NCBI GenBank assembly: GCA_018992685.1
Contig: JACVGT010000003.1
Coordinates: forward strand, 62,001-126,000
Direction of reading: 5' to 3'
DNA from: Theionarchaea archaeon
Lineage (GTDB): Archaea; Methanobacteriota_B; Thermococci; Methanofastidiosales; SZ-28-30
Length of the DNA stretch: 64,000 nucleotides
The notes beneath the pieces are model-generated. The model worked only from the letters and a program-made list of their open reading frames with translations. It was not told the DNA's origin and did no database searches. How positions within the stretch are numbered: the first letter of the stretch is position 1; each line of letters opens with the position of its first letter. Of this stretch, positions 8,953-24,496 are shown one piece after another. The position numbers and the translations under genes were made by a program.

Positions 8953-8969
8953 CCGAAAGCTTTATATAG
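8953..8969 (+). promoter_or_regulatory. BRE/TATA promoter driving a candidate structured RNA
   Basis: CCGAAAG followed by CTTTATATAG fits the archaeal BRE/TATA consensus closely on the plus strand. Transcription would start near 8991, far ahead of the first coding start (9130), so the transcript begins with the structured segment described next. The TATA core also reads on the minus strand but with a weaker BRE. Confidence 0.6.
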
Positions 8970-8990
8970 TGTTGTTAATCAATATTACAT

Positions 8991-9091
8991 AGCAATCTTC
9001 GGAGGTGTTACCAGGATTGCGACTCTGATTTCCAGGGGTTGGGGTTTCTCCTAACACGAGAAAAGGGTCCCAGGAAGCCCCAACCTTTTTT
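8991..9091 (+). ncRNA. Candidate structured RNA (ncRNA or 5' leader with attenuator)
   Basis: Two hairpins fill the stretch from the predicted transcription start to a T run. Hairpin 1: GCAATC (8992-8997) with GATTGC (9015-9020), enclosing GGT/ACC (9004-9006/9010-9012). Hairpin 2: GGGGTTGGGG (9035-9044) with CCCCAACCTT (9078-9087; eight Watson-Crick and two G-U pairs) stacked on TTTCTC (9045-9050) with GAGAAA (9058-9063), loop CTAACAC, and a 14-base asymmetric bulge (9064-9077). T6 follows at 9086-9091, overlapping the end of the stem. It may be a stand-alone small RNA or a leader of the redox operon at 9130, which has its own TATA-like sequence at about 9101-9114. It matches no riboswitch class I can recall. 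Confidence 0.45.
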
Positions 9092-9129
9092 GAAAAAAGT
9101 ATTTAAGTTATAAGAGAGGAGAGAAACAG

Positions 9130-21160: not shown

Positions 21161-21296
21161 TGCATTGTGATGCTGCCTTCCCCTCAGGGTGGCCTTACAC
21201 TCTGGAATTCTTGGCTTCATTGGCATCACATTGGGCACGTTTTCAAGATTCTCTTTTTGACCCGGGTGATTTGAACGACTGCATGACCATGCAAAA

Positions 21297-21307
21297 ACTT
21301 ATATAGG
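21297..21307 (+). promoter_or_regulatory. TATA box of the GH3-radical SAM operon
   Basis: ACTTATATAGG preceded by an A-rich BRE-like CAAAAA. Predicted start near 21327, giving an unusually long leader of about 155 bases before the GH3-like gene. Confidence 0.55.
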
Positions 21308-21348
21308 TCGTATCAGAAGACAAAGGTGGAGGAAAGGAGGATAGAACT

Positions 21349-21414
21349 GTGTGTCTATCTAAATACTGGGTGTCTGCTGTAGTTCTGGCTATATGCCAGG
21401 AAGCTGCAGCGTAG
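21349..21414 (+). CDS. Candidate 21-residue leader peptide
   Basis: GTG start eight bases after GGAAAGGAGG (21331-21340), the best ribosome site in the region. It reads MCLSKYWVSAVVLAICQEAAA then TAG. A second, siteless frame (21393-21464, 23 residues) would end inside the ribosome-site hairpin of the next gene. Translation of either could alter leader folding. No run of a single amino acid codon is seen. Confidence 0.35.
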   Translation: MCLSKYWVSAVVLAICQEAAA

Positions 21415-21480
21415 CTGTTCGCGAAGAGCGGACAGAGAACGCAGTAGTCCCTTTCTCCTCCTGATTTTGAGGAGGTGGAA
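21385..21480 (+). promoter_or_regulatory. Structured leader; hairpin hides the GH3 ribosome site
   Basis: Three successive hairpins: CTGGC/GCCAG (21385-21389/21395-21399); CTGTTCGC/GCGGACAG (21415-21422/21428-21435, loop GAAGA); and TTTCTCCTCCT (21452-21462) with AGGAGGTGGAA (21470-21480), loop GATTTTG, ten of eleven positions paired. The last contains the whole ribosome-binding site AGGAGGTGG of the ATG at 21483, so it should block initiation when folded. Translational control is inferred. Confidence 0.5.
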
Positions 21481-21482
21481 AG

Positions 21483-22991
21483 ATGAATACACATCTACTG
21501 CAGAGAGTAGAGAAACTTGCAGGAGACGATAGTGCTCTAGAACATGCTGAAAAAGTGCAAGAACAAGTTCTACGCAGTATTCTAAAGGCAAACAGAAATA
21601 CTGTATTCGGCAAGGACCATTCATTCTGTGAGATTGATTCCATAGAGTCTTACCAGAAGAGACTACCTCTGGCTCGTTACGATGACTTCAGACTGTATCT
21701 TGAACTGATGAAGGCCGGTGTCCCACATATCCTTCTAGCAGAGGATTTTCCTCGTTGGGCAGAAACCAGTGGAACGCTCTCTTCTCCAAAGCTGTACCCG
21801 ATTCCCGAGGTCATGGCAGAGCATTTTGGCAGAACCCTGGCCAAGATTGTGGTGAGCTGCGTGGAGGAAGAGCCATCCAGAAAATTCCTCCTGGAAGGCA
21901 AGATGCTCATGGTGGTGGCTGATGTGGCAAGCCGGTATGTAGCAGGCAAACCGGTGGGGTACATTTCAGGTGTGGTATCCCATGATGTACAGCAGCTGCC
22001 AGGGATGGCAGAGGCCTTCACTCCTTCTCAGAAGGTGTTAGCTATGGGAGATTGGGAAGAACGGTGGCTGGAACTGACGAGGCATGCTTCGAGAGAGAAT
22101 GTTACCATGAGCTGTTCCACGCCTCCCATTCTTCTGTCATACTTCAAGAAAGTGATTTCAGAATACCGTCCTCTCCTAGGCCTACCCGACACCATACCAA
22201 CGATCTGGCCCAACCTTGAGCTTATAACAGGAGCAGGGGTAAGAATGTCCCTGTACAGGAAGCAGTACCAGAAGCTTCTGGGAGACCAGGTGTGTTGCCG
22301 GGAGTTCTACTGTGCCACAGAAGGGTTCTTCGCCTATCAGAAAGATGAGAGAGAGGGGCTTACACCTATTCTCAACCATGTGTTCTACGAGTTCATTCCG
22401 CTTGACGAGTGGAACCAGATGGAAGAACCCCACAACTACAAGACTCATCCCCTGACGCGACTTTCCTACACTCGGGTTTCCCTCAACACGGACTACGTGC
22501 TGGCAGTGACTACTCCCGGTGGGCTGTACAGCTACATCATTGGGGATATCGTTCGGTTCATTGGGCCTGACAGACTGTTTTGGGTTGGCCGGCTAGGATG
22601 GGAAAGCAGTGTGGCTGGAGAGAAGTTCAACGAAATGCACATGTCCATGCTGAGGCAGTCAATGGAATCTACGCTGGGTGTTGAGATCACCAACCACATG
22701 GCAGCAGTGAAGGACGACCCTTTGCGGTACGTCTTTGCCTTTGAATTCGAGGAGAGCATTGATGTGAACACAGTCGTTGAGACAGTGGACAGGTCACTAC
22801 GGGAGGTAAATGCCATATATGATGATTTGAGGAAAAAAAATGTACTCAAATGTCCAGATATCGTTGCTCTCCAGAAAGGAACTTTTGATCGCTATATCAA
22901 GCGGAAACAGAAAGAGGAAAAGTCACTTGGGCAGATTAAGCCACCGTTGTTTGCAGATTCCGCCTTGATAGATGAGTTGGCAGAAGACTAG
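21483..22991 (+). CDS. GH3-family acyl-adenylating ligase (acyl-amido synthetase-like)
   Basis: 502 residues. GH3 enzymes activate a carboxylate with ATP and conjugate it, in plants to an amino acid. The three ATP-binding motifs of the family are present: SGTLSSPK (96-103), FYCATEGFF (275-283) and YSYIIGDIVRFIG (349-361), plus GRLGWESSVAGEK (369-381) in place of the family hinge. The C-terminal lid domain extends to about 485. GH3 proteins are well known in plants and some bacteria; an archaeal copy is unusual. It is followed by a B12-binding radical SAM gene after 26 bases, so the acyl substrate may be a product of that enzyme, or the conjugate its substrate. Neither substrate can be read from sequence. 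Confidence 0.8.
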   Translation: MNTHLLQRVEKLAGDDSALEHAEKVQEQVLRSILKANRNTVFGKDHSFCEIDSIESYQKRLPLARYDDFRLYLELMKAGVPHILLAEDFPRWAETSGTLSSPKLYPIPEVMAEHFGRTLAKIVVSCVEEEPSRKFLLEGKMLMVVADVASRYVAGKPVGYISGVVSHDVQQLPGMAEAFTPSQKVLAMGDWEERWLELTRHASRENVTMSCSTPPILLSYFKKVISEYRPLLGLPDTIPTIWPNLELITGAGVRMSLYRKQYQKLLGDQVCCREFYCATEGFFAYQKDEREGLTPILNHVFYEFIPLDEWNQMEEPHNYKTHPLTRLSYTRVSLNTDYVLAVTTPGGLYSYIIGDIVRFIGPDRLFWVGRLGWESSVAGEKFNEMHMSMLRQSMESTLGVEITNHMAAVKDDPLRYVFAFEFEESIDVNTVVETVDRSLREVNAIYDDLRKKNVLKCPDIVALQKGTFDRYIKRKQKEEKSLGQIKPPLFADSALIDELAED

Positions 22992-23017
22992 GTACATCAG
23001 GGGTGGTGAGAAATCTC

Positions 23018-24496
23018 ATGGTTCGATTCCTGCTAGTGAACAGTCACAAGTGGGAACCTCCATCCCCTCCTGCTGCTCTGGATTATGTAGCAGAGCAGTT
23101 GGAGGGTGAGGGTGTTGCCACGGATCTTGTGGATGTAGCCTTTACCAGTGAAGATGATGTGAGAGCCTTGCTTCAGACCACGCACTACGATGGTGCGTGC
23201 ATGACTATCCGCAACCTGGAACGCACCGCCTTTTCTGAGACTCTCCATTTTCCTCTCCCTGCCACGAGGTCCCTCGTCCACTTGATAAAGAGCTACTGCA
23301 AAGGGCCTGTTGTGGTGGGAGGAAATGGATTCTCCATCTTGCCAGAGAGGATTTTGGAGTATGTAGGAGCAGATTACGGCATCTACGGGTGTGGAGAGAC
23401 TTCTCTTCCTTTACTACTCAGGTACATACTCCATGGGGCAGGAAACATATCTGAAATTCCGTATGTGGTCCACCGTGAAGACGGCACAGTGAAGCGCAAC
23501 CCACCTGGACCCTTCAGAAGAGAGCTCCCTGTGGTGAAGAGAGGGCGAGTAGACTATCACATGTATTACAGCCCGGGCCACCAGCACTTTTCTGGATTTG
23601 GAGTCGTTGAGACTAAGAGAGGATGCCCTCACCGGTGCATCTACTGTGTTGAACCCTTCATCAAGGGGAAGCAAGTGCGAGTAAAATCACCTGGTTCTGT
23701 GGCAGCAGAAATTGACTGGTTTCTTGACCAGGGTATCAGCTACTTGTTCATTGCAGACAGTGAGTTCAATGCAGACTACGAAGCTGCAGTGAACCTGGTT
23801 ACCTACCTTAAACAACATGGATATCACCGGAAGATCAGATGGATTGCATATGTGACCCCCACTCTTTTTACAGAGGAACTGGCAGCACTCTTGTCCCAAT
23901 CGGGGGTTCTAAGTCTCATGATAGACTTCGGCCACGTCAACCCGACGATCCTCTCAAACCTTGGGAAGGCCCACACACCTCGGGACATTGAACGTGTCAT
24001 AGCATGGTGTGACGAATATGCCATACCCTTCAGGGGGAGTCTGATGCTGGGAGGTCCTGGGGAAACATATGGCACCATTGAGGAAGCTATAGAATTCTTC
24101 AAGAGGTACTCCTGCAAAGTATTCACGATTTTGGGGATCCGCGTGTTTCCCAATACTCCACTGGGAGAAGCTGTCCAGAGAGAAAGAATTTCAGAAAACC
24201 CACATCTCTGTGGAAAGGTACTCCAGAATGACGATCTCTTGGAGCCAGTCTACTATATTTCTCAGGACCTAGGAGAAAATGTCTTCACGTACTGCGAGAC
24301 CCTCACTGGTGACTCAGAGCAGTTCTATACAGTTACTTCTCCCTTCAGATTGACAAGAATCATGCACGGACCTTTCAGAGGAGTCCATCCTGAATATGAA
24401 CTCTATGGCTGTCCCAAGACCCGCTATCTAACCCGCCTTTCGAGAGATGCAGTTGAAGCTCCGCTTTTTGAGGAAGATGAGGAGAGGTCTTCATGA
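23018..24496 (+). CDS. B12-binding-domain radical SAM protein
   Basis: 492 residues. Residues about 1-150 form the cobalamin-binding Rossmann-like domain (FLLVNSHKW at the start, VVVGGNGFSILPERILEYVGADYGIYGCGE), without the classic DxHxxG motif. The radical SAM core follows with CPHRCIYC (Cys203, 207, 210) binding the 4Fe-4S cluster, GGPGET for SAM contact and FTILGIRVFPNTPLG. Such class B enzymes methylate unactivated carbons or rearrange rings. The ATG at 23018 is preceded by GGGTGGTGA with eight bases spacing; a GTG at 23003 lies within that site. It is in one operon with the GH3-like ligase. Substrate unknown. Confidence 0.85.
   Translation: MVRFLLVNSHKWEPPSPPAALDYVAEQLEGEGVATDLVDVAFTSEDDVRALLQTTHYDGACMTIRNLERTAFSETLHFPLPATRSLVHLIKSYCKGPVVVGGNGFSILPERILEYVGADYGIYGCGETSLPLLLRYILHGAGNISEIPYVVHREDGTVKRNPPGPFRRELPVVKRGRVDYHMYYSPGHQHFSGFGVVETKRGCPHRCIYCVEPFIKGKQVRVKSPGSVAAEIDWFLDQGISYLFIADSEFNADYEAAVNLVTYLKQHGYHRKIRWIAYVTPTLFTEELAALLSQSGVLSLMIDFGHVNPTILSNLGKAHTPRDIERVIAWCDEYAIPFRGSLMLGGPGETYGTIEEAIEFFKRYSCKVFTILGIRVFPNTPLGEAVQRERISENPHLCGKVLQNDDLLEPVYYISQDLGENVFTYCETLTGDSEQFYTVTSPFRLTRIMHGPFRGVHPEYELYGCPKTRYLTRLSRDAVEAPLFEEDEERSS

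Follow-up and report, generated by a model that had tools for sequence, protein, structure and literature searches.

The stretch of DNA analysed here (the window, 64,000 nucleotides) is taken from contig C5 (positions 62001-126000) of an archaeal genome of 3.03 Mb (G000) and includes a gene for a GH3-family acyl-adenylating ligase, the N-terminal, central and C-terminal domains of which all score above the Pfam cut-off (8e-29 to 2e-12). A close orthologue (86% identity) was found in just one other genome, that of Theionarchaea archaeon SZ_28-30 (the relative, G001), and both genomes have in addition a GH3 paralogue at 30-31% identity (contig C12 of G000, L006; contig C68 of G001, L007). The two genomes being the sole members of their family among the relatives searched, the comparative evidence is limited to two species and one paralogous gene in each; the leaders of these genes are referred to below as the four leaders. 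The features of the locus are as follows.

21280..21293, + strand: promoter-proximal palindrome TGCATGACCATGCA, kept in the relative
21299..21305, + strand: TATA box TTATATA; the distance from TTATATA to GGAGGAAA is 29 bases in each of the four leaders
21327..21356, + strand: site UGGAGGAAA...ACUGUGUGUCU, complementary to a candidate small RNA (sRNA), at the predicted mRNA 5' end and spanning the ribosome site and GTG of a supposed short ORF
21339..21360, + strand: hairpin 1 of the predicted closed state, its loop presenting ACUGUGUG; pairs kept in the relative
21364..21446, + strand: predicted three-way junction whose two hairpin arms are 21376-21410 and 21415-21435; the relative's substitutions all keep the pairing
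21439..21462, + strand: 3' strand ACGCAGU-A-GUCC-CUUUCUCCUCC, predicted to pair either with the 5' site 21328-21352 (Shine-Dalgarno open) or, via 21451-21462, with the Shine-Dalgarno site (closed)
21451..21482, + strand: hairpin sequestering the Shine-Dalgarno site, 12 pairs and one bulge; one loop base differs in the relative and the rest is invariant
21470..21478, + strand: Shine-Dalgarno (SD) site AGGAGGTGG of the GH3 gene, recognized from its sequence, inside the hairpin and before the ATG at 21483
21483..22991, + strand: GH3-family acyl-adenylating ligase, 502 aa (Pfam GH3, GH3_M, GH3_C)
23003..24496, + strand: B12-binding radical SAM protein (Pfam), the next gene, 11 bases past the GH3 stop

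The radical SAM gene is probably in the same operon as GH3. From the TATA box the transcript start is predicted at ~21323-21328, upstream of all leader elements, and the palindrome is a possible operator. In either genome the promoter signature CATGCAAANNNTTATATA is free of mismatches at the two GH3 genes and at no other place. Both genomes have, ~13 kb upstream of the paralogue, a transcription-factor-like gene with a promoter one mismatch away from this signature (L097:1501-1518, G000:C12:46421; L094, G001:C68:17159); no GH3-type leader lies behind it, and its product might be a regulator of both GH3 genes.

The original prediction, of a leader with three hairpins, two short ORFs and a final stem hiding the SD of the GH3 gene, described elements that are all present in the window: GGAAAGGAGG at 21331-21340, a 21-codon GTG frame at 21349-21414, a 23-codon ATG frame at 21393-21464 and the stem 21452-21462/21470-21480, which is in fact slightly longer (21451-21462/21470-21482, with one bulge). 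The structure of the leader goes beyond chance (z = -4.3, none of 200 dinucleotide shuffles being equally stable), and the SD hairpin alone has z = -2.8 against shuffles. Against a background sample of 460 kb of the same genome, also used below for sRNA targets, the cost of opening the SD, 12.3 kcal/mol, ranks first among 243 SD-bearing genes (mean 3.5, sd 2.4). By a lenient criterion, an SD-like 5-mer precedes a start candidate in these 243 of the 380 genes sampled, so that most genes there are not obviously leaderless, contrary to what had been supposed for the window. Rfam gave nothing in the leader at E <= 5, on which ground a known riboswitch or other Rfam family was rejected as its identity; there was no match at the gathering score anywhere in the window, and none for the paralogue leader or the candidate sRNA.

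Between the two species the leader is 90% identical to its counterpart while the 4-fold degenerate sites of GH3 are 60% identical (115/191), and from the palindrome and TATA box through the ATG the alignment is nearly gapless, with the intergenic DNA farther upstream having diverged. None of the 50 pairs of the SD-closed structure is broken in the relative, where five changes are one-sided and one, the compensatory C-G to U-A at 21390/21396, is two-sided, and ~45 bases around the SD are conserved almost completely. Covariation is slight (one compensatory pair) because the system is carried by two genomes only, and with two sequences shuffled controls cannot separate such a signal from chance. 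Searches of 21 genomes of the order, by DNA similarity and with a covariance model, recovered the leader from the two Theionarchaea genomes alone. These sequence comparisons show the RNA structure of the GH3 leader to be real.

The supposed ribosome site of the 21-codon ORF together with its GTG start makes up a two-part motif, GGAGGAAA...ACTGTGTGT. The corresponding pattern, GGAGGAAAN{2,30}CTGTGTGT, is found at three places in each Theionarchaea genome and in none of 19 further genomes from the order, with a reversed control likewise giving none and a chance expectation, by our own estimate with equal base frequencies, of ~0.04 per genome. The three places are the GH3 leader, the leader of the GH3 paralogue and, as the reverse complement, a conserved intergenic RNA gene. 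A single 11-base half-site occurs at background frequency, matches to a looser pattern, which would be other targets of the sRNA, include none common to both genomes, and a third GH3 homologue (L008/L009) has no motif match at its gene. The leader of the paralogue, ~155 bases, follows the same plan: promoter CATGCAAANNNTTATATA, then TGGAGGAAA and ACTGTGTGT, with the SD in a terminal hairpin and GGAGGAAA exactly 29 bases past the start of TTATATA. What the leaders of GH3 and its paralogue have in common is the 5' site, the promoter and the SD hairpin only, the three-way junction being absent from the paralogue. The part of the supposed ribosome site and GTG that is conserved is explained, as far as sequence can tell, by complementarity to a small RNA encoded elsewhere.

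The third place lies outside the window:

G000:C22:20311-20426 (= L044:1444-1559), - strand: candidate sRNA gene, ~116 nt; in the relative, L043 in G001:C121

It is 97% identical between the species, and its flanks 66-68%. Its conserved 5' end is 25 bases after the start of TTTATATA, a TATA box, in both genomes, and at its 3' end is a terminator-like GC-rich hairpin, GGGCTCC...GGGGCCC, with a T-run. The neighbours, named from reading of their translations, are a metG-like gene and a gene for a thioredoxin-like membrane protein, and the gene that follows has a TATA-like element of its own. The candidate is predicted to be an independent transcription unit distant from its target, on another contig, with a TATA box, a terminator-like end and conservation as a block. 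A search of 115 genomes of the phylum yielded it in the same two and in none of the other 113. Its predicted fold, in which part of the loop (CACAC) is paired, has no clear advantage in stability over shuffles (z = -1.15). BLAST matches of the sRNA on contigs C23 and C27 (L047, L052) were set aside as chance, no leader architecture being seen there; the one in L047 at ~1501-1518 (G000:C23:59257-59274), an exact match of 18 bases in the TCCTTTTCCTCCAGGG region with no large ORFs around it, has E = 0.04 and is probably due to chance.

A second candidate intergenic sRNA is in the window itself, at 8953-9098 on the + strand, where the BRE/TATA element CCGAAAGCTTTATATAG is followed by a stretch ~95% identical to the relative without gaps, at the end of which are a long GC-rich hairpin, GGTTGGGGTTTC...GAAGCCCCAACC, and T6 (z = -2.06; no Rfam match).

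When the loop of the first candidate, ACACACAGUAUCCUCUCCUUUUCCUCCA, was scored against 102,000 windows of 45 bases from the 460 kb, the best targets after its own locus were the paralogue leader (-40.2 kcal/mol) and then the GH3 leader (-34.8), the margin of the latter over the best unrelated target (-33.0) being small. The complementarity to the target mRNAs is specific, and what lends it weight is that both top targets are GH3 leaders, at equal distance from the TATA box and conserved in both species. The ranking is not fully independent since the motif that led to the sRNA was taken from the leaders; facts about the third locus that are independent are its strand, promoter, terminator and conservation. 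Predicted dimers of sRNA and leader gain 25-30 kcal/mol, with the SD hairpin closed in all four. Pairing of the sRNA with the leaders is well supported on this comparison of sequences, and we infer that the candidate sRNA and the leader RNAs are transcribed and that the pairing occurs in the cell.

What would such pairing do? The 3' strand at 21439..21462 resembles the sRNA loop, and in the paralogue the 3' strand, CACAGUAUUUCUCUCC, reads almost the same as CACAGUAUCCUCUCC of the sRNA loop. In each of the four leaders two mutually exclusive structures, one of which hides the SD, can be drawn, with energies that are approximate. The predicted SD-open helices of the GH3 leader are GGAGGA/UCCUCC, AAGG/CUUU, GGAU/GUCC and ACUGUGU/ACGCAGU, of which one pair (21340) does not survive in the relative; GAGA and GAGAUACUGUG pair with CACAGUAUUUC and UCUC in the paralogue. 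The open state of the GH3 leader is 2.5 kcal/mol above the minimum, the two states lying within the error of the energy model. For the four leaders, opening the SD costs 2.5, 5.2, 3.5 and 2.6 kcal/mol with the 5' site free and 13.8, 15.8, 7.1 and 8.2 with it blocked. Shuffling the 5' site raises the cost in the free state, values as low as those observed being obtained in 12, 5, 25 and 7 of 400 shuffles respectively; modelled SD occupancy itself hardly changes for the paralogues. The three-way complementarity is suggestive rather than proof, as the anti-SD arm will partly complement any GGAGG-like 5' sequence. Sequestration of the SD by a leader that refolds, as originally predicted, is nevertheless supported by the conservation, by the substitutions that preserve pairs and by an alternative pairing that would free the SD in all four leaders.

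The mechanism that we propose is that the GH3 mRNA would start at ~21325 and its first ~27 nt would pair with 21439-21461, so that the SD is accessible (ON); in the other state (OFF) the SD would be paired with the C/U-rich part of the 3' strand. The sRNA loop, like the leader's own 3' strand, would bind the mRNA 5' end, and on its binding the C/U arm would be released to close over the SD, giving less translation of GH3 and probably also of the radical SAM gene behind it. The same sRNA would act on the paralogue mRNA with its same architecture, and since it matches both GH3 leaders in the same way, one sRNA may switch both genes off. That the leader is an RNA switch under a trans-encoded sRNA, which represses GH3 by driving sequestration of its SD, is the reading we favour, with somewhat better than balanced confidence; that the effect is repression, and comes about by closure of the SD through strand exchange, is inferred. 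The proposition that two paralogous mRNAs are repressed through strand exchange by an archaeal sRNA encoded in trans on the chromosome, with a loop that mimics the 3' strand of the leader, is advanced tentatively, as a serious possibility.

The sRNA might pair with both GH3 mRNA 5' ends and yet have another effect, protecting them from nucleases or blocking a ribosome standby site, with activation then being conceivable. That all four leaders have the site where the mRNA is predicted to begin would suit this, and sRNA154 of Methanosarcina mazei does stabilise some mRNAs (PMC5867862). However, it leaves unexplained why the bound strand is in all four cases complementary to the arm that hides the SD, and why 45 bases around the SD are almost completely conserved, and we regard it as unlikely. 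Control purely in cis, by a ligand riboswitch or a temperature-sensitive SD hairpin, to which the likeness of the antisense RNA gene would be irrelevant, could draw on the strong and conserved three-way junction and on an SD hairpin that is the most stable of those of 243 genes. Refolding in response to a ligand had been suggested originally, and here the refolding is supported while nothing, with no relevant Rfam match at E <= 5, points to a ligand. As the paralogue leader is without the three-way junction, and the conserved antisense copy would go unexplained, cis control alone seems distinctly improbable.

Does the leader instead encode a peptide, with translation of the 21- or 23-codon ORF opening the SD hairpin? 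In the window the spacing of the SD to the GTG at 21349 is good and the 21-codon frame is uninterrupted in the relative. However, seven of its 21 codons differ between the species and all seven changes are non-synonymous (K-I, V-A, A-V, I-M, C-Y, Q-R and E-Q), the very substitutions that preserve an RNA stem or sit in loops. The SD of this ORF, AGGAGG here, is weakened to AGGAAG in the relative, the start of the 23-codon frame is lost there (ATG to GTA), and in the paralogue leaders an additional T, an indel between species, puts the comparable frame out of register. Neither short ORF is therefore a conserved feature; where conservation of both stem and ORF in relatives had been proposed as a check, the stem is conserved, one loop base of its hairpin being the sole difference, and the ORFs, judged by their codon changes, are not. 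A leader-peptide attenuator was rejected on these grounds, and such control is hardly to be credited. Very improbable too is that the third locus is no sRNA gene but a DNA element or a 5' leader, with the motif serving as a protein-binding site common to the three places. The sRNA fold has little advantage over shuffles, but antisense to the motif there are a terminator and, 25 bases upstream of a sharply conserved start, a TATA box; the gene that comes next carries a separate TATA box.

Returning to the proposed closure of the leader by an sRNA, there are bacterial trans-acting sRNAs, DsrA, RprA and ArcZ, that act on a helix of the rpoS leader which hides the SD, and do so by opening this inhibitory helix. 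The likeness is in a trans-encoded sRNA and an SD-hiding leader helix; the sign is opposite in that the candidate here would promote closure. In archaea, sRNAs with known targets are few and those described mask ribosome-binding sites or stabilise mRNA (PMC5867862). Of these, the intergenic sRNA162, sRNA154 and sRNA41 of M. mazei pair with mRNAs and repress initiation of translation (PMC3510493, PMC5867862). Whereas they mask the ribosome-binding site directly or stabilise the mRNA, the effect of the candidate would be by refolding, its site, unlike theirs, being ~115-145 bases upstream of the SD; Rfam, with no match, gave no sign of a sequence relation to them. Closest among the cases described is RNAI of the staphylococcal plasmid pSK41, an antisense RNA whose action on the rep leader causes a downstream stem-loop to form and hide the ribosome-binding site, with RNAI of pT181 as its transcriptional counterpart, where a 'pre-emptor' in the repC leader otherwise pairs with the 5' arm of the stem (PMC5703833). 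Common to these and the present case is that an RNA bound to an mRNA leader makes, or would make, a downstream stem-loop form. The plasmid RNAs are counter-transcribed at the same locus as their targets and control copy number in bacteria; the candidate sRNA, by contrast, is not counter-transcribed from its target locus, being encoded on another contig and pairing imperfectly with two paralogous mRNAs in an archaeal host. There is a warning in this for the reading of leaders: an ORF there, however convincing and with a strong SD, can in truth be a site of RNA pairing. The case offers, from sequence alone and in uncultured archaea, an sRNA, two targets and a falsifiable mechanism of strand exchange, and, if true, it would bring to an archaeal chromosome a type of switch described, in the literature cited, for counter-transcribed RNAs of bacterial plasmids.
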